Shown piece by piece: positions 2,276 through 22,591 of a stretch of DNA of 64,000 nt. The stretch is from Eubacteriaceae bacterium (GTDB lineage Bacteria; Bacillota; Clostridia; Lachnospirales; Lachnospiraceae). The stretch's first letter is position 1. Each line of letters opens with the position of its first letter. The notes below the pieces were generated by a model. It worked only from the letters and a program-made list of their open reading frames with translations, was not told the origin of the DNA and ran no database searches. The translations under genes were made by a program, and so were the position numbers. The DNA lies in contig CAJTDQ010000008.1 of the NCBI GenBank assembly GCA_910574895.1, positions 1-64,000 of the forward strand, in the 5' to 3' direction.

Positions 2276-2349
2276 TTGATTTTTGAAAGGTGATTAATAA
2301 AGAAAGGAGAGATAACGAGTTATTATCAAATGCGTTATCAAAATTTTAA

Positions 2350-2769
2350 ATGAAGAAAGTTATAATAACTATATTAATAGTCTGTATTTTTAGCAATGTG
2401 TTATTAACAGATTACAGTGTTCAAAATATTTATGGAAGTACGAAGGAAAAAAAGTTTACAACAGGTAAAAAGAACATAAAGGTCAAGGTAAAATTAGCGA
2501 CAAAAAAGCAACTAAAACTTAAAGTTACAAATATAACAAAAAGAAAATTTTTCTACGGGGGAGCGTTTGTATTAAAAAAACGTGTAAAAAACAAGTGGAA
2601 AAAGGTTAAATTCAAAGGACCTATTATGTTTGTTAAAACAAAAACATTGTGGGGAAAGAGTAGTAGGATAGAAAAACTTAAATGGAAGAAGTTTTTTGGT
2701 AAGAATCTTTCTAAAGGCAGATATAAAATAGATTATGGACTATTTTATAAAACTTTTAGAATAAAGTAG
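2350..2769 (+). CDS. Small secreted Ig-like (Big_14-like) protein, possible immunity protein
   Basis: 139 residues with an N-terminal signal peptide (MKKVIITILIVCIFSNVLL), then a strongly basic beta-rich domain with VLKKRVKNKWKKVKF, a pattern seen in small bacterial Ig-like domains where residues wrap around KW..V. Its N-terminus and domain resemble the protein at 8296-9009, so the two are paralogs. It follows the first RHS tip by 74 bases, the usual place for an immunity gene, but function is inferred from position only. No good ribosome site lies directly before ATG 2350. Instead GATAACG (2311-2317) and CGTTATC (2333-2339) can form a hairpin there. Confidence 0.55.
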   Translation: MKKVIITILIVCIFSNVLLTDYSVQNIYGSTKEKKFTTGKKNIKVKVKLATKKQLKLKVTNITKRKFFYGGAFVLKKRVKNKWKKVKFKGPIMFVKTKTLWGKSSRIEKLKWKKFFGKNLSKGRYKIDYGLFYKTFRIK

Positions 2770-2779
2770 TAATAAAAGC

Positions 2780-2809
2780 GAAGTATTACTTACTTGGTCT
2801 GGCAAATAA
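2780..2809 (+). pseudogene. 3' tail remnant of a lipoprotein immunity gene
   Basis: The ten codons GAA to TAA read EVLLTWSGK-stop and match the last codons of the intact immunity lipoprotein at 4379-4780 (EVLLIWLGE-stop), with nearly the same DNA (gaagtattacttayttgg). The remnant ends exactly where the next RHS fragment begins. It is most simply the scar of a lost toxin-immunity cassette. Confidence 0.6.
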
Positions 2810-2810
2810 G

Positions 2811-4385: not shown

Positions 4386-4780
4386 AAAAAATGTTATTAA
4401 TGATAGTGTTGCTATTAGCAACTATAATTTGTGTTGCATGTTCGACGGCGGTTAAGGAGAAAGAGACGATGAAACAAGAGTTAAAAGTAGATAAGAGTTA
4501 TATTTTTGATGCTCAAAAGATAAAAAAAACAGAAGATGGAATAAGGGAAGAAATAATAATTCCTGACAAAACTATTGCTTTAGAATATTCAAATATGATA
4601 TTAGAAAAAGTTTTGAAAAAAGATATCAATGAGTATAAAGAAGTGTATATCAATTATGATTCAAAAAAAGAAGTATGGATATTAACATACAGTTTGGGAA
4701 AAGAAACTCTTGGGGGAGATATTAATATTGCCATAGATAAGAAGACGGGGGAAGTATTACTTATTTGGTTAGGCGAATAA
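4379..4780 (+). CDS. Lipoprotein, NTF2-fold-like immunity protein
   Basis: 133 residues from ATG 4379, with AGGAGG at 4365-4370. An in-frame GTG at 4370 lies on that site and is less likely. The hydrophobic signal ends IICVAC, a slightly unusual lipobox (Cys at -3). The mature part ends VWILTYSLG...GGDINIAIDKKTGEVL, the pattern (W..TY, GG, I.ID..TG.VL) of NTF2-fold immunity proteins of polymorphic toxin systems. It overlaps the DUF4329 RHS gene, so it most likely protects against that tip. The family call is from motif memory. Confidence 0.65.
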   Translation: MVKKMLLMIVLLLATIICVACSTAVKEKETMKQELKVDKSYIFDAQKIKKTEDGIREEIIIPDKTIALEYSNMILEKVLKKDINEYKEVYINYDSKKEVWILTYSLGKETLGGDINIAIDKKTGEVLLIWLGE

Positions 4781-4855
4781 ATACAGATTCGTAATTCAAA
4801 AGTATGAAAATAATAGGTTGTCTATAAACTAATGGATAAGTTTAAGGATTAAAGG

Positions 4856-4894
4856 GAGGATTGAACCCTACCAATTTGATAGGATTCAATCCTC
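4856..4894. repeat. Near-perfect 15-bp inverted repeat
   Basis: GAGGATTGAACCCTA (4856-4870) and TAGGATTCAATCCTC (4880-4894) pair at 14 of 15 positions around a 9-base loop. There is no T-run after it, so it is not a standard terminator. It could be a terminator remnant or part of a small non-autonomous element. Confidence 0.6.
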
Positions 4895-4906
4895 ATACTT
4901 ATTATG

Positions 4907-4960
4907 GGTCGTGACCCTGTTGAGCTCGCGAAGCGTGCGAAATATCAACCACCCGTTTGT
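4907..4960. repeat. GC-rich palindromic block, REP-like candidate
   Basis: GGGTCGTGACCC (4907-4918) is a self-complementary 12-mer with a two-base offset centre. It is followed by GTTGA...TCAAC enclosing CGCGAAGCG, and by CACCCG. The GC content stands out against the AT-rich surroundings. Copy number elsewhere is unknown. Confidence 0.4.
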
Positions 4961-5083
4961 GCTCATGATTCTATTATTGGATAAGATAACCATGAATAAC
5001 ATTAAAAAGTTGTGAAAATGAGTCAAAACAAAGGTTTGATTTTAGGTCGTTAATATTTCTAAGAAATAGATAGGGAAGAATTT

Positions 5084-5428
5084 GGTGATGGTGTCGTAAG
5101 TTACTAGTATGATGATGGTACATAGAATTTGTATGCGTATTGTGGAGGAAATCCGATTAATTATGTGAATCCGAGTGGGCATGATGCAATTGAAGAGCCT
5201 GATATGTGGTTATGTAAACATATAATTAATTCTCCTTCTTATATTGGTGCGGAATTATATTTAAGAAAGAGAAAAGGATGGAAATACTCGGCAGATTTTT
5301 TAGAGCATTCATTACAAAAGAACCCGAGTGATTTGGTATATGGTTATGATTCTGAATTATCAATTAAATTGAGTAGGCATAAGAAAATAAAAAAGAGTAT
5401 AAGATTATTTTTAAAAAGGAAGAAAAAA
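5084..5428 (+). pseudogene. Third RHS core-tip remnant with two stops and an internal deletion
   Basis: The frame reads GDGVVSY-stop-YDDGT-stop-NLYAYCGGNPINY and then VNPSGH. Compared with the copy at 2811-4385, the core between YDDYG and the second DYGT has been removed, both ends being copies of GATGATTATGG. The DPSGH junction has become NPSGH. The remaining tip (about 80 residues, EPDMWLCKHIIN, DFLEHSLQKNPSDL) is a toxin domain I do not recognise. Its frame runs without a stop straight into the downstream lipoprotein gene. Confidence 0.65.
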
Positions 5429-5925
5429 ATGATAAAAAAAATAGTAGTATTAATAGTTACTATATCAATCGTATTAGCAGGATGTAACAAAAATGATATA
5501 TTAACATCAATAGGTAAAGAAATAGGAGTTGATATATCTTCAGAGAAAATTTTAGAAGAAAAAGATGATCATGGTGTTTTTTTGGTGATGGAATAAAAAT
5601 AGTCAAGATTCAAATTAAGAACAAGCAGTTTATTAGAGAATTAGATGATTCAAGTGAATGGAAACCTCAAATATCTAAAGCAATACAAGGGTTTTTGTAT
5701 GGATTGGAAGAGGGTGATTGCGGGTATGCACCATTTATTTCTGATGAGGATGATACTCCGTTGATACCTACTTTTTCTCATGCTTATTATTTTATTAAAA
5801 ATAGAAATAGTGATAGCTGTGACTTAGAAGGAACGGAAATGTTAGAATTACCTTCACAAAATGTAACAATAGCAGTTTATGATATTGAAACATCCGTGCT
5901 ATATTATTGTGAATATGATTCTTGA
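5429..5925 (+). pseudogene. Lipoprotein (probable immunity), frameshifted
   Basis: ATG 5429 has AAGGA seven bases upstream. The product starts with a lipoprotein signal ending VLAGC. After DDHGVF the frame is lost at a run of seven T (about 5579-5585) and ends at 5596. Adding one base restores a product continuing GDGIKIVKIQIKN and ending YDIETSVLYYCEYDS at 5925. The restored protein is collinear with the next copy at 6120-6605, so one base was probably lost from the T-run. The family (HG.F.GDG ... GYYF ... LYYYE.DT) is an uncharacterised Firmicute lipoprotein family as far as I can tell. Its position behind an RHS tip suggests immunity. Confidence 0.65.
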
Positions 5926-9901: not shown

Positions 9902-10216
9902 ATGAACATTAACAATATGATAAAGAGCGTAAGATGTGCAAGACGGCTTTCGGTAAAGGAGTTGTCACAAAAAGCAGATATATCAACAAAATTTTTGTAT
10001 GATATAGAAGCAGGAAAAAGGGGAGTGTTTTACATTACGCTATACAAGATTGCCAAAGCCCTGAATGTAACTTGTGATTACTTAATTTTAGGAGAAGAAA
10101 GAAATTTAAGTAATGAATTAGTAAGTGTTTTAGTGCAATTGGATACAAAGGAACAAAAGTTACTTTATACCATGGCTTTAGAAATAATTAAACTAAGAGA
10201 AAGCGAAGTCAAATAA
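9902..10216 (+). CDS. XRE-family helix-turn-helix regulator
   Basis: 104 residues, site GGGGG before ATG. An HTH_3 domain covers residues 6-63 (IKSVRCARRLSVKELSQKAD, STKFLYDIEAGKRG, NVTCDYLILG); the rest is a short helical tail. It differs from the XRE proteins inside the kinase operons, which share a longer C-terminal helical region. It sits just upstream of the first agr-like operon as a separate unit, as does a similar small XRE (15145-15465) upstream of the second. It could control the operon, but no target is proven. Confidence 0.75.
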   Translation: MNINNMIKSVRCARRLSVKELSQKADISTKFLYDIEAGKRGVFYITLYKIAKALNVTCDYLILGEERNLSNELVSVLVQLDTKEQKLLYTMALEIIKLRESEVK

Positions 10217-10252
10217 CATTTTATAAATTATGACTGAAAGTTATTAGTTAAA

Positions 10253-10270
10253 GAGGTGATAAGTATGTAA
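10253..10270 (+). other. Start-stop mini-ORF with strong ribosome site
   Basis: GAGGTGAT (10253-10260) is followed four bases later by ATG (10265-10267) and at once by TAA. A well-placed ribosome site before a minimal ORF may be chance or the trace of a deleted gene. It lies before the promoter of the first QS operon. Confidence 0.35.
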
Positions 10271-10317
10271 AAAAATCTATAAACAAAAGAAAAAATGAAT
10301 TATTGATACTATATATA

Positions 10318-10360
10318 GTATTGAAAATACGTGGCTGGTGGATAATAAGACTTATATAAT
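10318..10360 (+). promoter_or_regulatory. Promoter/operator of first XRE-RR-HK operon
   Basis: An inverted repeat GTATT-GAA-AATAC (10318-10330) runs into ACGTGG, and a TATAAT -10 lies at 10355-10360. The position expected for -35 holds TGGCTG, a poor match, as expected for an activator-dependent promoter. The same layout (GTATT-TTG-AATAC, ACGTGG, TATAAT) occurs before the second operon at 15646-15688. Conservation of the palindrome with a changed centre argues for protein binding, by the XRE or the LytTR regulator. Confidence 0.6.
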
Positions 10361-10390
10361 TAAAAGAATAATTTATATTGGAGAAATATT

Positions 10391-10774
10391 ATGCAGAGTA
10401 AAGATCACGTATATAGCAAATCAATAGGAAAGAGAATTCGTTCTATTCGAATGATGAACAATCTCACGCAGGATAATTTAGGAGATATCTTAGGTATTTC
10501 GGCTCAGGCAGTTTATAAAATAGAATCTGGCGAGAATATGATTACAGTAACTTCGTTAATTATCTTATGTGAGGAGCTGGATGTTACTCCGGATTATATT
10601 TTGTTTGGAATAAAGAAATCAGAACGAGAGTTAGAGTTATCTTTTGAAACAATGGAAGGAAATGAAAAGCTGCATTTATTGTTTCGTCTGCTGTTATACA
10701 TGAGCAAAGTAGAAAATGAGAAGTACAGAGAACCATTAGAAAACATTATTGATTTGCTGGATAAAAAAGTATAA
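10391..10774 (+). CDS. XRE-family regulator, first gene of agr-like operon 1
   Basis: 127 residues, GGAG before ATG. The N-terminal HTH domain (IGKRIRSIRMMNNLTQDNLG ... ISAQAVYKIESGENM ... VTPDYILFG) is followed by a helical region ELSFETMEGNEKLHLLFR that is closely shared with the XRE at 15720-16094, and less so with 21440-21820. Thirteen bases separate it from the response regulator gene, so it is co-transcribed with the sensor pair. Classical agr operons lack an XRE gene. It probably binds its own promoter palindrome. Confidence 0.8.
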   Translation: MQSKDHVYSKSIGKRIRSIRMMNNLTQDNLGDILGISAQAVYKIESGENMITVTSLIILCEELDVTPDYILFGIKKSERELELSFETMEGNEKLHLLFRLLLYMSKVENEKYREPLENIIDLLDKKV

Positions 10775-10786
10775 AGGATAAATGGT

Positions 10787-11521
10787 ATGAAAGGGATAAA
10801 GAAGAATATACTGGTTGTGGAAGACAGCGAGTATTATATGAATCTAATATGCAATACTTTAAGTAAAATTCCAGATATTAACATATATAAAGCAACTTGT
10901 AGTGCAGAGGCTTACAAATATGCAATGGAAATGTCGATATCTGTTTTTATTGTGGATTTAATTTTAAATACAAATGTGTTGGGAGATGTTTCTGGCATTA
11001 AGTTTATTGAGCGAATGAGAACAATAGAAAAATATAAATTTGTGCCAGTGATAATTACAACCTCATTAGAAGATCCAAAGCTCCATTCTTATAGCTACCT
11101 TCATTGTTATCGGTATTTTGAGAAAACATTTGATACAAATGAATTAGTGGAAACTGTTCTCGAAGTGCTGAAGTATGAATCCCCAAAGGAAAAGACAAAA
11201 ATTATATATTACAAAAGAGAAGGTTTGTTATTTTCTATTAACACAAATGATATTATTTATATTGAAAACTGTAATAGGTTTATTAAATATCATTGTGTGG
11301 ATGGCCTTCACACGGCACCATATCAATCCTGTAAGAAAATTATACAGGAAATGGAGTCAACTGATTTCATACAATGCAGTAAAAATACTATTGTTAATAG
11401 AAAGTATATTTTATGTGTAGATTCCATTAATAGATATATTACTTTAATGAATGAATACGGCACATTAGATATTGGTCCACGAATGAAAAAAGAGTTTATG
11501 AATAGGTTGAAAAATGATTGA
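10787..11521 (+). CDS. LytTR response regulator (AgrA-like)
   Basis: 244 residues. The receiver domain (1-125) has the acidic pair VVEDSE, phospho-acceptor Asp in FIVDLIL, the Thr in TTSLED and Lys in YFEKTFD. The C-terminal LytTR DNA-binding domain (about 140-240) contains YYKREGLLFSI, FIQCSKNTIVN and IGPRMKKEFM. A distinctive insertion-like segment HSYSYLHCYRYFEK is kept in the second paralog. The gene overlaps the kinase start by eight bases. Known AgrA-type regulators activate when the kinase senses a cyclic peptide. Confidence 0.88.
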   Translation: MKGIKKNILVVEDSEYYMNLICNTLSKIPDINIYKATCSAEAYKYAMEMSISVFIVDLILNTNVLGDVSGIKFIERMRTIEKYKFVPVIITTSLEDPKLHSYSYLHCYRYFEKTFDTNELVETVLEVLKYESPKEKTKIIYYKREGLLFSINTNDIIYIENCNRFIKYHCVDGLHTAPYQSCKKIIQEMESTDFIQCSKNTIVNRKYILCVDSINRYITLMNEYGTLDIGPRMKKEFMNRLKND

Positions 11522-12812
11522 GTTAATATACTTGTTGGCTGAAATACTGTCGGTTGTGATATGTATTTTTAATTTAAATAATAAAACGATAAAGATTAGT
11601 ATAAATATCTTAATTTTAATATCAGTAGATGTTTTATATATTACTTTGATAAATAATGGATATTTCGAGAAAAAATCTTTACCTGTAATTTACGTGCTTA
11701 TAGTCTTTTTTTCATTATTAGAGTTTAAAAACAAATTGACATATACAATTTGTATTTGTACTACTGCTTTTATATTTGTAACAGCATTGCAAATGATAAT
11801 GTTTTTACCTGCAAGTTTGTTAAGTTTTATTTTTAGCGAAGAAGTTGTTGTATTAGTTATTAATTCAGTAAATTGTCTTTTGCTTATTTTAACAAAAAAG
11901 TTTAGTGTATATAGAAAACTGTATGATTTGTGTAAGGTAAAAGAATTAAAGGTATTTATATGTGCGGCAATTGTTTTATTGTTGATGAGTTATTATCTTT
12001 ATGTAATTAAAGTTAAAAATAAAGTACAAATGGATGCATATATTACCTGTTTGGTACTGATTGTTATGACAATGTATTTGATTCTTAGATGGCAAAAATC
12101 ACATCATGAAGTTATAGTAAAAGATAAACAAATAGAAGTAGTGAGAAAATGTAAGAATTCTTTTGAAGAACTAATAAATATTGCTAGAAAGAATCAACAT
12201 GATTTTAATAATCATATTATTGCTATTTCAGGTATGCATAATGTAATTGATACATATGAAGAATTGGTTAATGAGCAGAAAAAGTATATTGGTGAAATTA
12301 ACAATAGAAACAAAATTAATAAAGTATTATTAGGGGTAAACGAGCCGATTTTAGCTGGATATTTATTTGGAAAATTATCAAGTATAAAAGAGTATGGTAT
12401 TGATATAGAGCATACTTTGTCTGTTTTATCAAATAAGATTGATTATATAACAATATTTGATTTAAATGAAATTATTGGTATATTATTAGACAATGCAACA
12501 GAGGCAGTAATATCTGAATGTGGAGAAAATAAAAAGATTCATTTGGAATTAGAAGAAACCGACATCAGATTAAAAATTAGTGTATCAAACCCTAGTGAAT
12601 ATTTAAAGCAAGAACGGATTTTGGAGATGTTTAAAACGGGTAAATCTACGAAAGGCAAAAATAGAGGATTAGGATTAGCTAAAATAAAAGATTATCAGGA
12701 ACATTATGGTTTCGATATTTTGGTAGATAATAAACAGACAAACAATAAGAATTGGATATGTTTTACAATTATAATATTAAAAAAGATTTCAAGCAACAGC
12801 AAAGTTACTTGA
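11514..12812 (+). CDS. AgrC-like GHKL histidine kinase
   Basis: 432 residues. The N-terminal 190 residues hold about six hydrophobic segments, as in AgrC peptide receptors. The dimerisation/phosphorylation helix has KNQHDFNNHIIAISGM (His in HDFNNH). The GHKL ATPase follows: N-box GILLDNATEAV and G-box STKGKNRGLGLAKIKD. It runs convergently towards the small minus-strand gene agrD1, its likely ligand source. Confidence 0.88.
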   Translation: MIELIYLLAEILSVVICIFNLNNKTIKISINILILISVDVLYITLINNGYFEKKSLPVIYVLIVFFSLLEFKNKLTYTICICTTAFIFVTALQMIMFLPASLLSFIFSEEVVVLVINSVNCLLLILTKKFSVYRKLYDLCKVKELKVFICAAIVLLLMSYYLYVIKVKNKVQMDAYITCLVLIVMTMYLILRWQKSHHEVIVKDKQIEVVRKCKNSFEELINIARKNQHDFNNHIIAISGMHNVIDTYEELVNEQKKYIGEINNRNKINKVLLGVNEPILAGYLFGKLSSIKEYGIDIEHTLSVLSNKIDYITIFDLNEIIGILLDNATEAVISECGENKKIHLELEETDIRLKISVSNPSEYLKQERILEMFKTGKSTKGKNRGLGLAKIKDYQEHYGFDILVDNKQTNNKNWICFTIIILKKISSNSKVT

Positions 12813-12822
12813 AATCCATTTT
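12785..12822 (-). terminator. Terminator for agrD1 transcript
   Basis: GATTTCAAG (12785-12793) pairs with CTTGAAATC (12808-12816). Read on the minus strand the stem is followed by a T-run (TTTTTTAATATT); on the plus strand the following text is only CATTTTAAAA. It overlaps the last codons of the kinase gene. Confidence 0.65.
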
Positions 12823-12827
12823 AAAAC

Positions 12828-12965
12828 TTATTCAAAGTCTTCAGGAAGTGGATATTTCTGTTCACCAAAAAATAGAAGGCTTATTTTGGAAAAACGAACC
12901 CATAATGCCATAGCCATGCATAAGTTGCATATGGTTCCTATACTAGTAAGTTTGATTTTTTTCAT
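12828..12965 (-). CDS. agrD: AgrD-like cyclic lactone autoinducer precursor 1
   Basis: 45 codons from ATG 12965 (AAAGGA upstream; two further in-frame ATGs lie 12 and 18 bases before it). The layout is AgrD: basic start MKKIKL, an amphipathic/hydrophobic leader with CNLC, then ISLLFF and a charged, Pro-containing tail GEQKYPLPEDFE. By analogy with AgrD processing the ring would be Ser29-Phe33 (SLLFF), with AgrB cutting before Gly34. Two other precursors in this window have exactly the same length and plan, which makes chance very unlikely. It faces the AgrC-like kinase tail to tail. Confidence 0.8.
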   Translation of the reverse strand: MKKIKLTSIGTICNLCMAMALWVRFSKISLLFFGEQKYPLPEDFE

Positions 12966-12983
12966 GATTTGCATTCCTTTCAT

Positions 12984-13077
12984 ATTATTTTAGCAATACC
13001 AAGTTGTAAAAATATAAGTGATATAAAGTTTAACCTGTATAAATAAATCCAGAAAAAAATACTGGAATATGCTAACA
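12984..13077 (-). pseudogene. Degraded 3' end of an agrB gene
   Basis: Read on the minus strand, GTTAGCATATTCCAG (13076-13062) through TTGCTAAAATAAT aligns with the last 35 codons of the intact agrB at 18489-19061 (GTTAGCATTTTCCAG ... GTCGCCAAAATTC), with small indels. The translation keeps VSIFQ and IQV and then loses the frame. It sits immediately upstream of agrD1, just as agrB sits upstream of agrD2b. Upstream sequence to about 13,260 is open on this strand but shows no AgrB motif. The remaining bases to 13,324 are AT-rich promoter sequence of the next gene. Confidence 0.6.
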
Positions 13078-13324
13078 AATATTAATAACATTAATATCAT
13101 ATACAGTATAATTGTTAAAATTAATATTAATACATAACTATGAAAAAAGAGGGTATTTTCATAATAAACGTAATAATTTGTAATTTCTTGCCTAAAGTTT
13201 AGGAAGAAAGCATATTTATATATAAACTAAAAAACGGGTACCTTATATAAATTTAATACTTAAAAAAATTTAAAAATGATAAAATATATAAAAAAAAGCA
13301 AAAGAAAGAAGGAGGGTTTTTCTA

Positions 13325-14812
13325 ATGAAATTAAGAAAAGTATTGGCAATAGTTTTAAGTGCAAGTTTGATATTTGCCGGCACCGCAAATATGGCTTATG
13401 CTGACGAGGGACAAGGAGATGAAGGAGGAGACACTGCTGTCACTTATGAATTAAAAGTAAATGGCAAGCAGTTTTCAGAAAACAAAACTACAATTCAATG
13501 TGGTGAAGGAACAGCAGAATATAATCATGAAGCAGCAACATTGACATTGAGTAATGCGCAGATTACTGAGATAATGGGATATTCAGGTGGATGTATTTCA
13601 TCACAGATTGAAGGGCTGAAAATTGTTCTTGTAGGTGATAATACAATCAGTAATAGTTATAATACGGGAATTAATTCTACGAATGATGTTACAATTACAG
13701 GTGAAGGTACATTAAAAATATCTGGTTATATGGGCATTGAATCAGGTTCTTATGGCAGCCAGAATGGTGTGCTGACAATAAAGGACACAAAAGTAATTAT
13801 AAATACAGATGATAAGTGTGTTTCAGCAAATACAGATATTGTTGTTGAAAATAGTGTGTTTGAAGCAAAGGTAAATCATGGTACATATTCTTATGCCACA
13901 GCAATTTCTATGGGCAGTGTTGGAAAATTTGTGGTAACAAATAGTGACGTAACTGTTGAATCACCTGAAAATTCAGCAATTTATATGGGAGATGTATTCT
14001 CAGAAACAGAAAGAAAGTTTATACTTAATTCTGGCAATGTTATAATTAAAAATTTAGGGGGAAGTTCTTCTGCTATTCATTTTGGACCAGTAGAGAATGC
14101 TGCTATTGAAATCAATGGTGGTATGTTAAATGTAGAAAGTGCTTCTACAGTTACTAATCTTGCAGAATCAGCTATTACGATAAAAAATACAAGTATTGCA
14201 TCTGGATCATGGGATGGAAATAATATAAAAATCACACATCCGGAACATCATTTTAGTTCAGAATGGGTATTTGATAAAGATAACCACTGGCATGAATGTG
14301 AATGTGGAGAGAAGCAGGATGTGGCTGCACATACAGGAGGAACTGCAACAGAAGAAGAGCAGGCAGTTTGTGAAGTATGCAAATCACCTTATGGTGACAA
14401 AGTAACAAAACCAATCGAGACCACAGAAGCACCAACAACAAGTGCATTGTCCAAGGTAGAAACAACTACAGCAAATGCAGTAGAAACTACAACTGCAAAT
14501 AATCCAACGAAGGCGATTAAAGTAGGTAAAACAACGTGCAAAACTGCAACAAAAAAATATAAAGCAGCAAAAATCAAAATTTCTTTAAAGAAAGTAAAAA
14601 AAGCAAATAAATATCAGGTACAGATTTCTAAGTCAAAGAAATTTAATAAAGTTTTAGTGAAAAAAACAGTTAAAACAGTTAAATTTGTAATTACTAGTAA
14701 AAAACTTGAAAATAAGAAAAAGTTGTTTGTCAGAGTAAGAGCACTTCAACTTGTTAATAGAAGAGTTTACGCAGGAAAATGGTCAAAGCTTAAAAAAGTG
14801 AAAATTAAATAA
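13325..14812 (+). CDS. Secreted beta-helix/carbohydrate-binding-like protein with Thr linker and FnIII-like end
   Basis: 495 residues after AAGGAGGG. The signal peptide runs to about residue 27 (ANMAYADEG). Residues 35-300 are repeats of short beta strands with Asn/Thr/Gly turns (LTLSNAQI, VTITGEGTLKISG, INGGMLNV), as in parallel beta-helix or carbohydrate-binding domain proteins. Then comes HWHECECGEKQDVAAH and CEVCK, a Cys/His knuckle common in Lachnospiraceae surface proteins, a Thr/Pro-rich linker (TTEAPTTS), and a basic FnIII-like domain (KYQVQISKSKKF ... VRVRALQ). No sortase signal is seen. Lying between the two QS loci it may be a regulated exoprotein, but no shared promoter motif was found. 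Confidence 0.7.
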   Translation: MKLRKVLAIVLSASLIFAGTANMAYADEGQGDEGGDTAVTYELKVNGKQFSENKTTIQCGEGTAEYNHEAATLTLSNAQITEIMGYSGGCISSQIEGLKIVLVGDNTISNSYNTGINSTNDVTITGEGTLKISGYMGIESGSYGSQNGVLTIKDTKVIINTDDKCVSANTDIVVENSVFEAKVNHGTYSYATAISMGSVGKFVVTNSDVTVESPENSAIYMGDVFSETERKFILNSGNVIIKNLGGSSSAIHFGPVENAAIEINGGMLNVESASTVTNLAESAITIKNTSIASGSWDGNNIKITHPEHHFSSEWVFDKDNHWHECECGEKQDVAAHTGGTATEEEQAVCEVCKSPYGDKVTKPIETTEAPTTSALSKVETTTANAVETTTANNPTKAIKVGKTTCKTATKKYKAAKIKISLKKVKKANKYQVQISKSKKFNKVLVKKTVKTVKFVITSKKLENKKKLFVRVRALQLVNRRVYAGKWSKLKKVKIK

Positions 14813-14871
14813 AAAGTGTAGTTACTTTTAAGTTTTACAAATATCGTATTGATTTATTTAAGAGAATGAGA

Positions 14872-14916
14872 AGTCTAAGAATACGTATGTAAAGTATGCA
14901 TTCTTAGACTTTTTTA
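14872..14916 (+). terminator. Rho-independent terminator
   Basis: AGTCTAAGAAT (14872-14882) pairs perfectly with ATTCTTAGACT (14900-14910), followed by TTTTTT. It ends the secreted protein gene. Confidence 0.88.
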
Positions 14917-15144
14917 TTATGAAATTGTAGGTATATTAATGATGATATATTAAAAATACTATATAAAATACGTTTTTATTACACTATTTAATGCAAAAAG
15001 CATATTATTTAAAAATAGCCAAACAACATTATGCTGGTATGTTATAATATATAAAATTGTTGTGAGCGTTTTATTTTTTACAATCTGCTTAAAGATAAAA
15101 TTTAACAAATAGCATAAGGATAAAAGTGAGAGGAGAGAAAAACA

Positions 15145-15465
15145 ATGAAATTAGAATCTATAGGAGTAAAGATTAGGGAAAAGAGGGAACAGAAGTCATG
15201 GAGCCAGGAGGCATTAGCATGTGCGGCAGACTTATCTACCGTATATATTGGAATGATTGAACGAGGAGAAAAAGTACCTAGATTGCAGACCTTTTTAAGA
15301 ATCGTACATTGTTTGGGAACTACACCTAATGATTTATTGGCGGGATTATTTCCTGAGAAAAAAAATGAAGAAACTTTTAAGTATAAACATGAAATTGAAA
15401 AATTAAGTGTAAAAGACAAGAATAAAATGTATAAAATAATGGAGGCCTTTTTTGAAGAATACTAG
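15145..15465 (+). CDS. XRE-family helix-turn-helix regulator
   Basis: 106 residues, GAGAGGAGAG before ATG. HTH domain at residues 5-65 (VKIREKREQKSWSQEALACA, STVYIGMIERGEKVPRL, GTTPNDLLAGLF), then a helical tail. A weak hairpin follows the gene (CAAATCTA/TAGATTTG near 15476-15500). It occupies the same place relative to operon 2 as the XRE at 9902 does to operon 1. Confidence 0.75.
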   Translation: MKLESIGVKIREKREQKSWSQEALACAADLSTVYIGMIERGEKVPRLQTFLRIVHCLGTTPNDLLAGLFPEKKNEETFKYKHEIEKLSVKDKNKMYKIMEAFFEEY

Positions 15466-15645
15466 GTAATAATGCAAATCTACATTATTGCTAGATTTGT
15501 AAGAATATGTTAAAATACAATTGCTTTTTAAATTTGATACTTAATAAAAAATAAAAACAGTTATATATGAGTCACTCAAATATGTCATATAGAGTATCAT
15601 ATATAATTTTTTTTTACCCCGAGCCGATTATAAATATATGATATA

Positions 15646-15688
15646 GTATTTTGAATACGTGGATAGTAAATAATAAGATTTATATAAT
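15646..15688 (+). promoter_or_regulatory. Promoter/operator of second XRE-RR-HK operon
   Basis: Inverted repeat GTATT-TTG-AATAC (15646-15658), then CGTGGATAGTAAATAATAAG and TATAAT at 15683-15688. It is strongly conserved with 10318-10360, including spacing and the poor -35, and so is likely bound by related regulators. Confidence 0.6.
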
Positions 15689-15719
15689 TATAAGAATAAT
15701 CTATGTATGGAGAGATATT

Positions 15720-16094
15720 ATGCGAAATAAAGACCACAGAAACAATAAAGAAATTGGCAAAAGGATTCGTTCTGTAAGAATGATGAATAATCTTACACAG
15801 GATAATCTGGGAGATATGTTAGGTATAACTGGACAGGCTATACAAAAAATGGAAGCTGGTGAAAATATGATTACAGTAAATTCATTGATGATATTATGCG
15901 AAAAATTAGACGTAACACCAGATTATATACTGTTTGATAAACCAAAAACGGAACGTGATGTAGAGTTATCGTTTGAAACTTTAGAGGGCAATCAAAAATT
16001 GCAATTACTATTTCGATTATTGTTATATGTTAGTAAAGTTGAAAATGAAAAATATAGAAATTTATTAGAATCAATAATTGGCACGTTAGATTAA
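15720..16094 (+). CDS. XRE-family regulator, first gene of agr-like operon 2
   Basis: 124 residues from ATG 15720, preceded by GGAGAG. An in-frame ATG 69 bases further upstream lies in the promoter region and is rejected. The HTH part IGKRIRSVRMMNNLTQDNLG and the tail ELSFETLEGNQKLQLLFRLL are near-identical to those of 10391-10774. Nineteen bases separate it from the response regulator. Confidence 0.8.
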   Translation: MRNKDHRNNKEIGKRIRSVRMMNNLTQDNLGDMLGITGQAIQKMEAGENMITVNSLMILCEKLDVTPDYILFDKPKTERDVELSFETLEGNQKLQLLFRLLLYVSKVENEKYRNLLESIIGTLD

Positions 16095-16113
16095 AGGATA
16101 AAGGACATTTAAG

Positions 16114-16848
16114 ATGAAAGTGTTTAATAAAAATATACTTGTTATAGAAGATAATGAGTTTTATATGGATTTAATATGCAATGAACTGGAGCAGTTAGAA
16201 AATGTTAATATATACAGAGCAACAAATAGTGCAGATGCATATAAATATGCGATGGAGATATGTATCGATGTATTTATTGTTGATATTATTTTAAATACAA
16301 ATGCATTAGGAGATGTATCAGGAATTAAGTTTATTGAAAGAATTAGAACTATAAATAAATATAAGTTTGCACCGATAATTATCACTACTTCTCTAGAAGA
16401 CCCTAAACTCCATTCTTATAGTTATTTACATTGCTATCGTTATTTTGAAAAGAAATATGATCCGAAAGAATTATTTGCGACTGTTCTTGAAGTACTGCAG
16501 TATGAAACACCAAATGAAAGTACAAAGATGATTTATTATAAACGAGAGGGACTGCTGTTTTCAATCAATATTCAGGATATCATTTTTATTGAGAATTGTA
16601 ACAGATATATAGAATATCATTGTACAGATGGGGTTCATAAAGCACCATATAAGTCTTGTAAAAATTTAATAGAAGACATACATTCTGAAGATTTTCTACA
16701 ATGCAACAGGCACACAATTGTTAACAGAAGATATATTCTGTATGTAGATCTTGTAAATAGATATATAGAGTTAACAAATGATTATGGAAGTTTAGAAATA
16801 GGACCACGAATGAAGAAAGATTTAATAAGCAGGTTGAAAAATGATTGA
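16114..16848 (+). CDS. LytTR response regulator (AgrA-like), paralog 2
   Basis: 244 residues, same length and domain plan as the regulator at 10787-11521: receiver domain with VIEDNE, FIVDIIL and YFEKKYD, then LytTR domain with YYKREGLLFSI and CNRHTIVNRRYI. The match includes HSYSYLHCYRYFEK. It overlaps the kinase start by eight bases exactly as in operon 1, so the two operons arose by duplication. Confidence 0.88.
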   Translation: MKVFNKNILVIEDNEFYMDLICNELEQLENVNIYRATNSADAYKYAMEICIDVFIVDIILNTNALGDVSGIKFIERIRTINKYKFAPIIITTSLEDPKLHSYSYLHCYRYFEKKYDPKELFATVLEVLQYETPNESTKMIYYKREGLLFSINIQDIIFIENCNRYIEYHCTDGVHKAPYKSCKNLIEDIHSEDFLQCNRHTIVNRRYILYVDLVNRYIELTNDYGSLEIGPRMKKDLISRLKND

Positions 16849-18124
16849 TGGATTGTTTACGTTAATAGAAATTATAGCAGTTGTAATATGTATACATAAT
16901 TTATATTCAAGAGATAAAATATTTTCTATGTATACTTTAATATTTGTTTGCTTAGAAAGTTTTTATATACAATTAGCAAATGAAGGTATTGTATCTAAAG
17001 AAGTAATGATTGTAATATACCTGTTATTTATATTATATACTTTAATAGAATTTAGAGACAGTCTTATAAATTGTATTTATAATTGTTTAGTGACAATGTT
17101 AATTATTTCTGTATCTCAAATGGTTTTCTATTTGCCTGGAATATTAGTATATAATTTATGCAATAGTGAAGAGATAATGGCCGTATTCATTAATCTTTTA
17201 ACTCTTTTATTAATAATAATTACAAGAAAAGCGAAACTATATAATGCTCTTCACAATATATGTAGGAGAAAAGAAATAAAAGCGGTAATAAGTATTATTG
17301 TTAGTATAGGAATATTGCTTTATTATTCATATAGGATTAAAAAAGATAACGTTGTTCCAATAGATCTATATCTAACATGTTTATTATTTTTGATTATTGT
17401 AATATTCTCTATATATAGATGGCAGCGTTCTAATTACGAGGTGGAGCTAAAAGAGGAACAGTTAAAGATAGCCCGAAAATACAATGATTCTTTTCAGATA
17501 TTAGTAGAAGTTGTAAGAAAAAATCAGCACGATTTCGATAATCATTTATTAGCTTTATCTGGAATGAACCTGAATTCTGCTTCTCGTGATGAACTGGAGG
17601 AAAAACAAAAGGAATATAAGAAGACGATATTAGAACAGAATAAATATAACAAAATTTTGTATCGGATTAATGATCCAATATTGGCAGGATACACCTTTAG
17701 TAAATTGTCTGAGTTAGAAGAACAGGGATTAAATGTATTTTATGATGTAAATATAAAATCAGATAAAGTGGATGATATTCCCGTATACGACATAATAGAA
17801 ATTATTGGGATTCTATTGGATAATGCAAGGGATGCATTAAAAGAAAATAATTTAGAAAAAAGAGTCAAGTTTATTCTAAGTGAAGATAATGAAAGGTTTA
17901 CAATAGGAGTATATAATGTTAGCCCTTATTATTCAGAAGAGAGTATAATTAAGTTTTTTAGAAAAGGATATTCAACAAAAGGTGAAAATAGAGGTATAGG
18001 TTTGTCAAAAGTGAAAGAATTTCAAAAGCAATATGGATTTGACATTTTAATTGATAATAAAACTGAAGAGAATGTAAACTGGTTAAGATTTAATATTGTA
18101 ATTAAAAAGGCCTCGGTTGATTAA
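16841..18124 (+). CDS. AgrC-like GHKL histidine kinase, paralog 2
   Basis: 427 residues with about six N-terminal hydrophobic segments, phospho-acceptor region KNQHDFDNHLLALSGM, N-box GILLDNARDAL and G-box STKGENRGIGLSKVKEF. The membrane part has diverged from paralog 1 much more than the catalytic part, as expected if the two receptors distinguish different peptides. Its 3' end lies in a two-way terminator shared with the minus-strand agrBDD genes. Confidence 0.88.
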   Translation: MIDGLFTLIEIIAVVICIHNLYSRDKIFSMYTLIFVCLESFYIQLANEGIVSKEVMIVIYLLFILYTLIEFRDSLINCIYNCLVTMLIISVSQMVFYLPGILVYNLCNSEEIMAVFINLLTLLLIIITRKAKLYNALHNICRRKEIKAVISIIVSIGILLYYSYRIKKDNVVPIDLYLTCLLFLIIVIFSIYRWQRSNYEVELKEEQLKIARKYNDSFQILVEVVRKNQHDFDNHLLALSGMNLNSASRDELEEKQKEYKKTILEQNKYNKILYRINDPILAGYTFSKLSELEEQGLNVFYDVNIKSDKVDDIPVYDIIEIIGILLDNARDALKENNLEKRVKFILSEDNERFTIGVYNVSPYYSEESIIKFFRKGYSTKGENRGIGLSKVKEFQKQYGFDILIDNKTEENVNWLRFNIVIKKASVD

Positions 18125-18137
18125 AACCGAGGCTTTT
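18110..18137. terminator. Bidirectional terminator between kinase 2 and agrD2a
   Basis: GCCTCGGTT (18110-18118) pairs with AACCGAGGC (18125-18133), with T-runs on both strands (TTTT after 18133; CTTTTT on the minus strand). Confidence 0.85.
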
Positions 18138-18139
18138 GT

Positions 18140-18277
18140 CTATTCATAATCTTCTGCAACAGGATATTTCGGTTCACCAAAAAAGCAAAAGCTCATTTTT
18201 GAAAAACGAACCATAAACATCATCGCCAAGCATAAATTACAAATAGTGTTCATACTTGTGAGTCTAAATTTTCTCAT
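18140..18277 (-). CDS. agrD: AgrD-like autoinducer precursor 2a
   Basis: 45 codons from ATG 18277, with a strong GGGAGGTC site. The product starts MRKFRLTS, has CNLC in the hydrophobic leader, then MSFCFF and tail GEPKYPVAEDYE. Ser29 is in register with the other two precursors; this one also has Cys31. The expected ring is Ser29-Phe33, though a Cys31-based thiolactone cannot be excluded. It is the last gene of the minus-strand agrB-agrD-agrD unit. Confidence 0.82.
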   Translation of the reverse strand: MRKFRLTSMNTICNLCLAMMFMVRFSKMSFCFFGEPKYPVAEDYE

Positions 18278-18351
18278 TTGTAAGACCTCCCTTTCTAGAT
18301 AATTTAGCAATTTATTGTATTATCAGAACACAATTATCCAGAGATAAAAAA

Positions 18352-18489
18352 TTAGTTAAAATTTTCTGGAAGTGGATAGTTAGATTCGCCGAAAAATAAA
18401 AAACTTATTCCTGAAAATCTTACATAGAATATCATTGAAAGACATAAATTACAAATGATATTCATAGTTACTAATTTTATTTTTTTCAT
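18352..18489 (-). CDS. agrD: AgrD-like autoinducer precursor 2b
   Basis: 45 codons from ATG 18489 (a longer in-frame ORF runs into agrB, but AGGAGG at 18503-18498 marks this start). The product has MKKIKLVT, CNLC, core ISFLFF and tail GESNYPLPENFN. No Cys occurs in the core, so a Ser29 lactone is the expected product if it is cyclised. The ATG shares its A with the agrB stop (TAATG), so translation is coupled to the processing enzyme. Confidence 0.85.
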   Translation of the reverse strand: MKKIKLVTMNIICNLCLSMIFYVRFSGISFLFFGESNYPLPENFN

Positions 18490-19061
18490 TAATATATGCC
18501 TCCTGTTCTTAGAATTTTGGCGACTATTAATTGTATTGTATGTAATACAATAGTCCAAAAACCAACTTGTATATATGGAGCCAGAAATGAAATATTCTGG
18601 AAAATGCTAACGCATAGTATGAAAGAAAAAATTATAAAAAAACCTATATTACGGCAACTTTTTATAAGAACACTGTCAGGGGCTGGTCTAAAAGGTGATG
18701 CAACTGGTCCAATGTAAAAGTTAATAATCATACAAATAATACTAAAAAACATAATATGAGTAGTTGATAACGAAAATAGATTTGGAAAAAACATAATTGA
18801 CATATATAAGATAAAAAAAGTAAGTAACAGACAACTCATGTAATGTTTACAATGCAGTCCTCCAATATTAATTCTTAAAAATAAAAGTAAAATAATTGAA
18901 AATAAGAAAGGATAAAAATATCCTAATACTCCAAACAAAGTTCCGAAAAGAAGTAATTTTGAAAATTCGGAAAATAAGGATGCTAATACATACTTTACTT
19001 TAGCTATATCATAGTCAGAATAACCATATTCTCTTTGCAATTCCTGAATCAGTTCGCTCAT
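18489..19061 (-). CDS. agrB: AgrB-like peptide-processing membrane protease
   Basis: 190 residues from ATG 19061. An ATG 12 bases upstream is rejected because it contains the GGAGG ribosome site. AgrB proteins cut the AgrD tail and form the ring at the membrane. The catalytic pair is visible in GGLHCKHYMSCLLL: His70 and Cys77, seven apart as in known AgrB. Four to six hydrophobic segments cover the protein. It is the only intact agrB in the window, so it probably processes the two adjacent precursors and possibly agrD1. Confidence 0.9.
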   Translation of the reverse strand: MSELIQELQREYGYSDYDIAKVKYVLASLFSEFSKLLLFGTLFGVLGYFYPFLFSIILLLFLRINIGGLHCKHYMSCLLLTFFILYMSIMFFPNLFSLSTTHIMFFSIICMIINFYIGPVASPFRPAPDSVLIKSCRNIGFFIIFSFILCVSIFQNISFLAPYIQVGFWTIVLHTIQLIVAKILRTGGIY

Positions 19062-19090
19062 AACAACCTCCATTTTATTATTTTTGCGTA

Positions 19091-19120
19091 GTAATGTAAT
19101 AAATATTTATCTATTACGTA
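19091..19120 (-). promoter_or_regulatory. Inverted repeat and TACGT box upstream of agrB
   Basis: ATAAATATTTAT (19099-19110) is a perfect palindrome flanked by GTAAT (19091-19095) and ATTAC (19113-19117). On the minus strand TACGTAATAGATAAATA begins at 19120 and recalls the TACGTGGATAGTAAATA block before operon 2. It is a candidate site for regulation of agrBDD by the system's own regulators. The other bases between 19062 and 19319 show no gene. Confidence 0.45.
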
Positions 19121-19319
19121 AATCCAATAGAATTATCAGTGAGAAGTATAAAAGAATAATAATGAAAAACTTCAATTCTATGAAATGCAATGTAAAAATA
19201 ATTATAAACGCAAAAAAAAGAATAAAAATCATGTCATTTCTTGTAAATGGTTTTGATATATGTATGAAAAAGTGTAATTAGGAAAATATAAACAAAAAAG
19301 TAATTAGGGGAAATATAAT

Positions 19320-20624
19320 ATGTCAAAATCAGTATGGATAGATGGTACAAAACTTCCAAAGTATCAAAAATTGCAAGGAAAGGTTAAAACCGAGGTTTTA
19401 GTTATTGGTGGTGGAATCACAGGAATATTATGTTCGTATTTTTTGAATCAATCAGGAGTAAATACTATACTAGTTGAAGCTGATAGGATATGTCATGGGG
19501 TAACAGGGAATACTACAGCAAAATTAACTTCTCAGCATGGATTAGTATATGAAAAAATGATACAGTCTGTAGGAAAAGAAATGGCCGGAAGATATTTAGA
19601 GGCAAATGAGCAGGCACTAGAACGGTACAGAGAGCTGGCAAAGAATATAAATTGTGATTTTGAGAGAAAAGATTCTTTTATTTATTCATGCTCAAACCGA
19701 AGCAAAATTGAAAAGGAAGTTGAGGCTTTAACACAGTTAGGAATTGCGGCAGAATTTTGCGAACACATTTCAATTCCATTATCTATCAGGGGAGCAGTAA
19801 AATTTCCTAACCAGGCACAATTTAATCCGTTAATGTTTTTATCGGAGATTGTAAAGGGATTAGAAATCTATGAGCACACATTTATCAAAGATATCGCTCC
19901 ACATAAAGCGTGGAGTAATGAAGGGGAAATTACTGCAAATAAAATTATCGTAGCGACGCATTTTCCGTTTTTGAATAAATATGGAAGTTATTTTTTAAAA
20001 TTATATCAGGACCGCTCATATGTAATTGCCTTAAATAATGTAGAAGATGTACATGGTATGTATATGGATGAGGAGAAGACAGGTAAGTCTTTTCGAAATT
20101 ATAAAGATTTATTATTGATTGGTGGAGGAAGTCATAGAACTGGTAAAGCTGGAGGCAACTGGGAAGAACTAAGAGAGTTTGCAAAACAGTATTTTCCAGA
20201 AGCAAAGGAGAAGTATGCCTGGGCAACACAGGATTGTATGAGTTTAGATCAAATTCCATATATCGGAAGATATTCAAAACGGACACCGGATTTGTATGTT
20301 GCATCTGGTTATAATAAATGGGGAATGACAACATCCATGGTTGCAGCAATGTTATTATGTGATTTAGTTATGGAAAAGAAAAATGAATGGGAAGAGGTAT
20401 TTTCTCCAAGCCGCAGTATTTTAAAACCACAGCTCTTTATTAATGGAGTTGAGGCAACAAAAAATTTATTGACACCAACAATGAGACGTTGCCCGCATTT
20501 AGGCTGTGCATTAAAGTGGAATTCTACAGAACAAACGTGGGATTGTCCGTGTCATGGTTCCCGTTTCGAAAAAGATGGAAAAATAATTAATAATCCGGCT
20601 ACCGGAGATGCAAAGCTTAAATAA
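19320..20624 (+). CDS. FAD-dependent oxidoreductase with C-terminal Rieske domain
   Basis: 434 residues after TTAGGGGAAA. The dinucleotide fold is at residues 28-57 (VLVIGGGITGILCSYFL ... LVEAD). The middle region is typical of the DAO (glycine oxidase-like) family, including YIGRY and ASGYNKWGMT near the FAD. The last 45 residues carry a Rieske 2Fe-2S signature, CPHLGC and CPCHGSRF. Proteins of this YhfW-like plan are common in Firmicutes; the substrate is unknown. It stands next to the NUDIX gene. Confidence 0.85.
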   Translation: MSKSVWIDGTKLPKYQKLQGKVKTEVLVIGGGITGILCSYFLNQSGVNTILVEADRICHGVTGNTTAKLTSQHGLVYEKMIQSVGKEMAGRYLEANEQALERYRELAKNINCDFERKDSFIYSCSNRSKIEKEVEALTQLGIAAEFCEHISIPLSIRGAVKFPNQAQFNPLMFLSEIVKGLEIYEHTFIKDIAPHKAWSNEGEITANKIIVATHFPFLNKYGSYFLKLYQDRSYVIALNNVEDVHGMYMDEEKTGKSFRNYKDLLLIGGGSHRTGKAGGNWEELREFAKQYFPEAKEKYAWATQDCMSLDQIPYIGRYSKRTPDLYVASGYNKWGMTTSMVAAMLLCDLVMEKKNEWEEVFSPSRSILKPQLFINGVEATKNLLTPTMRRCPHLGCALKWNSTEQTWDCPCHGSRFEKDGKIINNPATGDAKLK

Positions 20625-21370: not shown

Positions 21371-21400
21371 TCCATAGGTACGTAGATAATCGGCCATAAA
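21371..21400 (+). promoter_or_regulatory. TACGT-type element before third XRE-LytTR pair
   Basis: TACGTAGATAAT (21379-21390), preceded by GTATATAC, resembles the blocks before the two full QS operons (TACGTGGATA). It lies about 50 bases before the XRE start and may be the same regulator's site. Confidence 0.35.
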
Positions 21401-21439
21401 CAATATAGAATTTAAATATAAATATATGGAGCGTACTTT

Positions 21440-21820
21440 ATGGAGAGAAAGAAGATTACGGCACTAGACAGACAAATAGGTTCAAGAATTAAATCTATTA
21501 GAACAGATAATAAATTGTCTCAGGAAAAAATGGCAGCAAAAATAGGATTGGAGTCTCTTACTTTTTACCAGAATGTAGAAAAAGGAAAAAACAGGTTATC
21601 ATTAGAGAATTATATTAAAATATGTGATGAGTTTAATGTCACGATGGATTTCGTATTAAGAGGAAAGGTTAGTGACAACAAAGAATTTGAAGTATTCTTT
21701 GACAGCCTGGCTCCTAATAATAAAGTTCAGGAGTTTATGAATTTAATATTAAAGTTATGTGGAAATGAAGATGATGATTACATAAATTCTTTATTCGAAG
21801 TATATAAAAAGATGAGTTGA
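21440..21820 (+). CDS. XRE-family regulator of the third, kinase-less pair
   Basis: 126 residues after TGGAGCG. HTH domain IGSRIKSIRTDNKLSQEKMA ... SLTFYQNVEKGKNRL ... VTMDFVLRG, then a helical tail with FEVFFDSLAPNNKVQEF in the place of ELSFETMEGNEKLHLLF of the other two. Length and gene position match the operon-1 and operon-2 XRE proteins, but it is more diverged. Confidence 0.78.
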   Translation: MERKKITALDRQIGSRIKSIRTDNKLSQEKMAAKIGLESLTFYQNVEKGKNRLSLENYIKICDEFNVTMDFVLRGKVSDNKEFEVFFDSLAPNNKVQEFMNLILKLCGNEDDDYINSLFEVYKKMS

Positions 21821-21853: not shown

Positions 21854-22591
21854 ATGCAGTTAATATACAAACAGATATTAGTAGTAGAAGATAATAAATA
21901 CAGTATGAACCGTATTTGTTCTATTTTGAAAGAAATTGAGGGAATAACGGTTATAAAGGCAGAAAATAGCGGAGAAGCATATCAATGTGCAATGGAGTAT
22001 TCTATTGATTTGTTTATCATTGATATTATTTTAGATTCAACAAAAGAAGCAGATGTTTCGGGAATGTCTTTTGCAGAAACAGTAAGAAAAATGGAAAAAT
22101 ATAAGATGACACCGATTATTTTTACAACATGTTTAGAGGATCCGGAGTTACATGCATATGCACATTTACATTGCTATGAGTACTTTAAAAAACCATATGA
22201 TTCAGAAAGATTAAAAGAAGCAATTATTACAACACTGCAAATGAAAATTCCCAAGTATGAAAAGGAATATGTATGTTTTAAGGTTAATGGAATTGTGTTT
22301 CCGGTCAAAATAAAAGATATAGTATACATTAATAATAAAACTACATCATTACAGATACAGTGTGCTAACGGGGAAAGTATTGATGCTCCTTATAAATCCA
22401 GCAGACAAATGCTGTTAGAACTTAATTCTAATAAATTTTTAAAGTGTAATAAAAGTGTCATTATTAATGTTGATTTTATTGAGTCTGTAAACTATCAAAT
22501 TTGTCAGGTAAAATTAAAAAAGAATTTTGGTGAGGTTAAAATTGGGCGAAGAATATTAAAAAGTTTTAAAGAAGGTTTACAACAGTCATAG
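21854..22591 (+). CDS. LytTR response regulator without adjacent kinase
   Basis: 245 residues, GGGGAG before ATG. The receiver domain keeps VVEDNK, Asp in FIIDIIL and Lys in YFKKPYD. The LytTR domain keeps VNGIVFPVKIKDIVYI, FLKCNKSVIIN and IGRRILKSF. No histidine kinase, agrD or agrB follows; a HAD gene starts 90 bases later. It may take phosphate from one of the two neighbouring kinases or work unphosphorylated. Confidence 0.82.
   Translation: MQLIYKQILVVEDNKYSMNRICSILKEIEGITVIKAENSGEAYQCAMEYSIDLFIIDIILDSTKEADVSGMSFAETVRKMEKYKMTPIIFTTCLEDPELHAYAHLHCYEYFKKPYDSERLKEAIITTLQMKIPKYEKEYVCFKVNGIVFPVKIKDIVYINNKTTSLQIQCANGESIDAPYKSSRQMLLELNSNKFLKCNKSVIINVDFIESVNYQICQVKLKKNFGEVKIGRRILKSFKEGLQQS

Follow-up and report, generated by a model that had tools for sequence, protein, structure and literature searches.

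What are two copies of one regulatory operon doing, each running head-on into very small genes on the opposite strand? The question is raised by a stretch of 64,000 nucleotides from a Eubacteriaceae bacterium of the family Lachnospiraceae (GCA_910574895.1, contig CAJTDQ010000008.1, positions 1 to 64,000), called the window here. An earlier sequence-only reading had taken the two loci, A and B, for paralogous agr-like quorum-sensing systems with the small genes as autoinducer precursors. Our analysis points the same way and would go further, to two paralogous agr-type modules of a distinct lineage that are coupled at a shared promoter block, a reading to which we give a probability of about 0.8. 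The parts of the two loci are:

10391-10774, plus strand: XRE-A, which opens operon A and is a Cro/C1-type helix-turn-helix (HTH) protein (HTH_3 7.8e-13, Pfam).
10787-11521, plus strand: RR-A, a response regulator with receiver and LytTR domains (Response_reg 4.2e-10, LytTR 1.3e-10, Pfam).
11514-12812, plus strand: HK-A, an AgrC-like membrane kinase (HATPase_c_5 7.2e-12; six hydropathic segments; HDFNNH box).
12784-12817, minus strand: a hairpin resembling an intrinsic terminator 3' of agrD-A and sharing bases with the end of HK-A (terminator scans).
12828-12965, minus strand: agrD-A, a precursor with predicted ring SLLFF, then GEQKYP (tail-aligned precursors).
15720-16094, plus strand: XRE-B, from the ATG at 15720 in a reading frame that opens at TTG 15651 (comparison with XRE-A).
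16114-16848, plus strand: RR-B, a response regulator with receiver and LytTR domains (Pfam; comparison with RR-A).
16841-18124, plus strand: HK-B, an AgrC-like membrane kinase (Pfam; six hydropathic segments; HDFDNH box).
18110-18133, no single strand: a hairpin between HK-B and agrD-B1, T-rich on both sides, which resembles a terminator on the minus strand and may do so on both.
18140-18277, minus strand: agrD-B1, a precursor with predicted ring SFCFF, then GEPKYP (tail-aligned precursors).
18352-18489, minus strand: agrD-B2, a precursor with predicted ring SFLFF, then GESNYP; its start overlaps the agrB stop (TAATG).
18489-19073, minus strand: AgrB, the cysteine protease and cyclase, with His74 and Cys81 (PF04647 5.4e-25; clade membership).

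The coordinates confirm the identical layout that had been described. Both plus-strand operons consist of genes for an XRE protein, a LytTR regulator and a kinase of the GHKL type, the last two overlapping by 8 bases in either case, and both meet minus-strand genes of 45 codons head-on, the kinase stop lying 15 bases from the opposing agrD stop at either locus. Between A and B the XREs are 74% identical, the regulators 71% and the kinases 41%. Locus A has one 45-codon gene and locus B two, with agrB, present only at B, upstream on their strand; the TAATG overlap of agrB stop and agrD start is found in both modules of the genome with this type of agrB. The first ATG of agrB is at 19073; judged by eye, GGAGG is better spaced for the ATG at 19061. 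The agr-like reading is well supported; Pfam recognises AgrB, the GHKL kinases (HATPase_c_5, six hydropathic segments and an HDF.NH box in HK-A and HK-B) and the LytTR regulators. HK-A matched the staphylococcal AgrC model at E 5.3e-12, but far under the cut-off of that model. The single operon on one strand that is expected of agr was not found; the genes are convergent in the window, in a module on contig 10 and at 24 loci located through their regulators.

The genome (2.48 Mb, 27 contigs) has three agrB genes, two of them in the AgrB clade of these modules. The single agrB of the sequence-only reading is therefore correct inside the window but not for the genome, where contig 10 bears a third complete convergent module (L010:3320-6529) in which XRE, LytTR regulator and kinase face an agrD (SFFLF, then GEPKYP) and agrB. 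Four precursors of the module type were found in all, three in the window and one on contig 10. An ordinary agr on contig 6 (L011:4288-7830) has a Cys precursor (CWYVL, then HEEKLP) and agrB on the same strand; opposite them lie two regulator-like genes and one sensor-like gene, named by similarity only.

That the minus-strand genes are real is supported by selection and by terminators. Three further species of the genus have matches to the window peptides (E <= 1.3e-22), and the 45-codon frames, on whose conservation among relatives the sequence-only reading had staked its case, proved to be conserved. The ratio of nonsynonymous to synonymous differences (pN/pS) was 0.14-0.42 in 12 of 12 precursor gene pairs, which we chose ourselves, and 0.33-0.34 for agrD-A against B1 and B2. 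Intrinsic terminators no more than 110 bases 3' of agrD, on its own strand, were found for 18 of 35 genes against 0.38 expected from shuffles, the matches being uneven and clustered in some sub-lineages. Among these are the genes at 12828 and 18140, the last precursor gene of each window locus, whose terminators overlap the end of the kinase gene. The scan called the hairpin at 18110-18133 on the minus strand, and its fold z is -5.8 and -5.7 on the two strands. A plain scan of 10200-19400 gave no enrichment of terminator-like sites (3 found, 1.9 expected).

The layout is typical of a distinct agr lineage and not a local oddity. Of 23 genomes of the genus, four with the own genome counted have a precursor at E <= 1.3e-22, all three of the other species showing the head-on arrangement; matches were weak in six more (E 0.02-0.08), and the other 13 gave nothing at E <= 0.1. 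Precursors were found in 12 of 397 genomes of the family (E <= 1e-3) and in 3 of 392 of the class (E <= 1e-4), own included, counts that are lower bounds with about 18 candidates scored per genome. Eight of the 11 other family loci have a convergent kinase within about 3 kb; L021 ends early, L023 has agrB and no kinase, and L028 has none of the genes. Outside the family, L163 is a full convergent regulator-kinase/agrD-agrB locus, and L162 shows only a regulator facing a peptide in 1.7 kb.

Anchoring the search of named genomes on the regulator avoids selection on the peptide, with the regulator alignment built from this genome and from loci found through precursors. This gave 61 loci, many metagenome-assembled and some truncated by contig ends, which by record title are mostly Lachnospiraceae or its genera with few others (L080, titled Bacteroidales, is assigned to the window's own family by taxonomy). 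Parablautia intestinalis and Oliverpabstia intestinalis are among the carriers of modules. Of the 61, 33 have an XRE no more than 200 bases upstream of the regulator, 27 have a kinase downstream of it, and 24 combine the kinase with a convergent agrB; seven of these 24 had already been met through precursor searches. Each of the 24 full modules has, between the kinase and agrB and on the same strand as agrB, a peptide gene with Ser (21) or Cys (3) at the fifth residue ahead of the Gly; where there were competing short frames, the G[ED]..[YFL]P tail decided the choice. L063 has regulator and kinase, yet no agrB or precursor was seen alongside. In L071, L083, L089, L092, L040, L041 and L043 the XRE upstream of the regulator is a protein of about 230 residues, and the XREs of L039, L040, L041 and L043 have two HTH stretches each (Pfam). 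A phage search with AgrB only gave one partial match, and in a plasmid search with HK-B only 151 records matched, none covering more than 80% of the query. No title or abstract opening among the literature matches listed describes this convergent layout, though this says little about whether it has been described.

In a tree of 63 AgrBs, the 31 labelled as convergent-module members form one clade of 33 with L035 (a contig end) and L037 (no kinase seen), with support of 100/97 and apart from the ordinary AgrBs of the family. The sequence-only reading had called the convergent layout unusual; within the lineage this is wrong, as all 31 AgrBs so labelled are convergent and sit in the one clade. 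His74 and Cys81 are present in 33 of 33, in agreement with the His/Cys pair noted earlier. Among 29 control AgrB loci the kinase is convergent in 4, on the agrB strand in 8, and not seen in about 3.5 kb or less in 17. Two of the four convergent controls (L125, L127) are module members; the others (L119, L128) lie outside the clade on long branches, and convergence as a feature unique to the lineage was rejected. The modules would form a distinct agr lineage that is found mainly in Lachnospiraceae.

The three window peptides, each of 45 residues, are pairwise 58-64% identical. We compared them in a set of 35 precursors (24 regulator-anchored, 4 of this genome and 7 others; 33-48 residues with starts as we assigned them), which includes close relatives and does not amount to 35 independent cases. 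When these are aligned on the tail Gly, 32 have Ser at position -5 and the remaining 3 Cys, and the entropy of this position is 0.42 bits against 2.5-3.3 at the nine preceding ones. Position -1 is Phe in 33 and Leu in 2, position 0 is Gly in 35, +1 is Glu in 34 and Asp in 1, and +5 is Pro in 34. As only two nucleophiles occur at this five-residue distance, we infer a ring of five residues and, for most members, its closure as a lactone. The peptides resemble AgrD in being short, with a leader, a ring and a tail with a conserved acidic residue and Pro; they depart from it in the Cys expected to form a thiolactone, the ring position being Ser in all three window precursors, a point the sequence-only reading had missed. 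Position and spacing of this Ser fit a lactone-closed ring of five. AgrD-B1 has an additional Cys inside its predicted ring. On the AgrB tree Ser and Cys have interchanged at the ring position at least twice within the clade.

Clear precursors were found at 16 of 28 non-module AgrB loci (27 of the 29 controls and L011) and at 12 none. The 16 were hand-picked from script matches with spurious ones dropped, and a Cys precursor of L120, seen by eye, is uncounted; their ring position is Cys in 9, Ser in 6 (two with an adjacent Cys) and Thr in 1. A Y/H tail is found in every one of the 16, and the G seen in the 35 module precursors in none of them; this contrast arises partly by construction, precursors having been recognised by their tails on both sides, though the pattern allowed G. 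Ring-position Ser is seen in the ordinary, non-convergent AgrDs of L117, L129, L132 and L134, and Ser rings may be common beyond the module lineage.

How the two loci might be connected is suggested by the sequences ahead of their XRE genes, where a block is shared and a third, orphan pair has a relative of it:

10318-10334, plus strand: promoter block GTATTN3AATACGTGG upstream of XRE-A, exact in the genome only here and at 15646.
15646-15662, plus strand: promoter block GTATTN3AATACGTGG upstream of XRE-B, an exact match to that of XRE-A.
21379-21407, plus strand: promoter block TACGTAGAT..TATA before the orphan XRE-C, related to those at 10328 and 15656.
21440-21820, plus strand: XRE-C of an orphan XRE-RR pair, a third paralogue (paralogy; counterpart beside the syntenic locus in L033/L046).
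21854-22591, plus strand: RR-C, a LytTR regulator without adjacent kinase, 40% identical to RR-A (Pfam).

The block lies 56 bases from the start codon of XRE-A and 57 from that of XRE-B, and is also found before an XRE in L046 and L047 (exact) and L048 (one base changed). With a single block common to both operons, a shared output of A and B is plausible. The core TACGT[AG]G.T and a downstream TATA are common to operons A and B and the orphan pair, so that A, B and C may jointly control their own promoters. The search for a regulon gave no third exact block in the genome, and matches with two mismatches numbered 20 against 39 for a reversed-pattern control; a longer pattern, drawn from the three XRE sites themselves, returned these three promoters and two matches with two mismatches, the control giving 2. 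The sensor halves of HK-A and HK-B are 36% identical and the kinase halves 47%, and the LytTR halves of RR-A and RR-B agree at 74 of 109 positions; divergent sensors and similar LytTR halves fit separate inputs with a common output, and the cross-talk between the two channels that had been proposed is plausible. The regulator of L046 is nearer RR-A (LytTR 85/109, receiver 106/135) than RR-B (75/109, 103/135), though its kinase is B-type, which suggests exchange between module copies.

We therefore propose a circuit in which cyclization, ring size, sensing, the pairing of peptide with kinase, DNA binding, the role of XRE, the regulon and cross-talk are all inferred. AgrB would cut each precursor before the conserved Gly-Glu, and a five-residue ring would be closed from Ser to the carboxyl of Phe or Leu, as a lactone (in a minority of relatives from Cys, as a thiolactone), with the leader trimmed by a further peptidase. 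Precursor A, which is without its own agrB, would probably be processed by the AgrB of locus B. The exported peptide would be sensed by the membrane kinase, leading to phosphorylation of the LytTR regulator, and this regulator together with the XRE of the same operon would act at the block before both XRE operons, giving feedback and coupling of A with B.

Several points weigh against this reading. The peptide, its ring, the minus-strand RNA and DNA binding are all predictions from sequence. The agrD genes of the nearest relatives (L010, L046, L048 and L050) have no terminator in the test described above, and no Pfam or NCBIfam model matched the three window precursors at E <= 1 (agrD-A searched minus its first residue). 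The promoter block is absent upstream of agrB and agrD-A, judged by eye and with no other exact site in the genome. The XRE as first gene of the operon, part of the layout proposed earlier, holds for the window but for only 14 of the 24 full modules (within 200 bases of the regulator), so XRE is not essential to the lineage. Ser as its unique mark was rejected; with Ser in 6 of 16 ordinary AgrDs of the family, the residue is not diagnostic. Finally AgrB1 and AgrB2 of Staphylococcus aureus cannot process a Ser precursor according to PMC10482373, so that processing of Ser by the window AgrB is an assumption.

There are three rival explanations. Locus A could be a decaying duplicate, its precursor unmatured in the absence of agrB, with only locus B signalling: no agrB or relic of one adjoins agrD-A (none in 12701-13400), and the syntenic relative L033/L046 shows one module only. 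We regard this as improbable, though the least so of the alternatives, given that agrD-A is intact, with the pN/pS against B1 and B2 reported above and its own terminator-like hairpin, and that HK-A has kept its H box and transmembrane segments. Somewhat less probable again is that AgrB does process the precursors and the active signal is something other than a five-residue lactone, whether linear, of another ring size, or converted by an O to N acyl shift to an all-amide cyclopeptide. Tail-less autoinducing peptides (AIPs) become homodetic peptides in Listeria, with a similar shift reported for R. cellulolyticum, and of a Listeria lactone analogue 48% had rearranged and 36% had been hydrolysed by 22 h (PMC11297923). 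A linear signal would not need the strict placing of Ser or Cys five residues before Gly, which is the staphylococcal ring size, and several members, L054 and L081 among them, have no leader cysteine. We think it very improbable that the minus-strand genes act chiefly as antisense or as membrane micro-proteins that damp the kinase mRNA; the 15-base gap from stop to stop at both loci means that opposing transcripts could overlap, but selection at the protein level, the TAATG coupling to agrB, the terminators and the Ser/Cys rule all speak against it. Two paralogous, coupled agr-type modules remain our preferred reading.

Over the 11 residues up to and including the ring, B1 is the same as the precursor of the L046 species and B2 the same as that of the L048 species, which makes signal sharing with these species possible. 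The records of both are metagenome-assembled genomes from isolates named 'Lapin'. As for the choice of Ser, the thiolactone pentamer of Listeria has a half-life of 1.3 min (PMC11297923), and the slower loss of the lactone analogue would make longevity of the signal one possible reason. A wider picture, to which we give rather less than an even chance, is a lineage of gut Clostridia with lactone autoinducers as standard, in which the window species makes, and possibly hears, the signals of two other gut species, and in which XRE and LytTR proteins of the same operons bring channels A and B together at one promoter block.

What the modules control might be reflected in their neighbours. A comparison of 25 loci gave no common target gene; an ABC-type ATPase group and genes related to sugars turn up beside some of them only. 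In the sub-lineage of L068, L070, L072, L073, L075, L079 and L103 the modules have an extra regulator-like protein and, upstream on the other strand, a pair of XREs, and by eye glycosyltransferase or sugar-nucleotide genes lie near several of the seven loci, where the output is maybe surface polysaccharide. Mutually related, secreted-looking proteins are found near three modules of the genus (window 13325-14812, L010:127-3054 and a relative in L050), as a possible output or as chance neighbours. Elsewhere in the window, 1262-5596 holds several RHS/YD-repeat C-terminal pieces with differing ends (DUF4329 in one), comparable to polymorphic toxin loci.

Lachnospiraceae are major gut commensals, and their peptide signalling is poorly known. 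The signature Ser/Cys-x3-[FL]-G[ED]-x2-[YFL]-P facing a LytTR regulator-kinase operon makes such modules recognisable where, in the window, standard models missed the precursor, and the predicted signal structures are ready for synthesis. This makes testable why a lineage would prefer lactones over thiolactones, whether species share signals and what XRE contributes to an agr circuit.

How then do these modules compare with known systems? Staphylococcal AIP precursors have a DE..VP tail. The modules share with staphylococcal agr (agrBDCA) the His/Cys pair of AgrB, a short precursor with a leader, the five-residue ring, the GHKL kinase and LytTR regulator, and a tail with a conserved acidic residue and Pro; they differ in having two convergent transcription units, an XRE gene, Ser as the ring residue in most, precursors outside the AgrD models, and GE..YP in place of the staphylococcal tail. 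The staphylococcal ring of five is formed by Cys closed onto the C-terminal carboxyl (PMC10482373). The agr1, agr2 and agr3 sets of Clostridioides difficile, including that of phage phiCDHM1, likewise show variable agr gene content in Clostridia; compared on gene content, the genes named for these three sets are without an XRE (PMC3901668). Enterococcus fsr also makes a lactone peptide (GBAP) with an AgrB-like FsrB, and FsrA and FsrC are homologous to AgrA and AgrC, but the GBAP ring has four more residues, and the fsrD gene is contained within fsrB in a different frame (PMC3673130). The Staphylococcus intermedius group has a Ser-lactone AIP (PMC10482373, PMC3673130). In that group, as is predicted here, Ser replaces Cys at the ring position to give a lactone; there it is an exception among staphylococci, whereas here it prevails in an AgrB clade across many genera, and the gene order differs. 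The convergent Ser/Cys-ring modules are a variant within the known agr family that recurs across many related gut bacteria.

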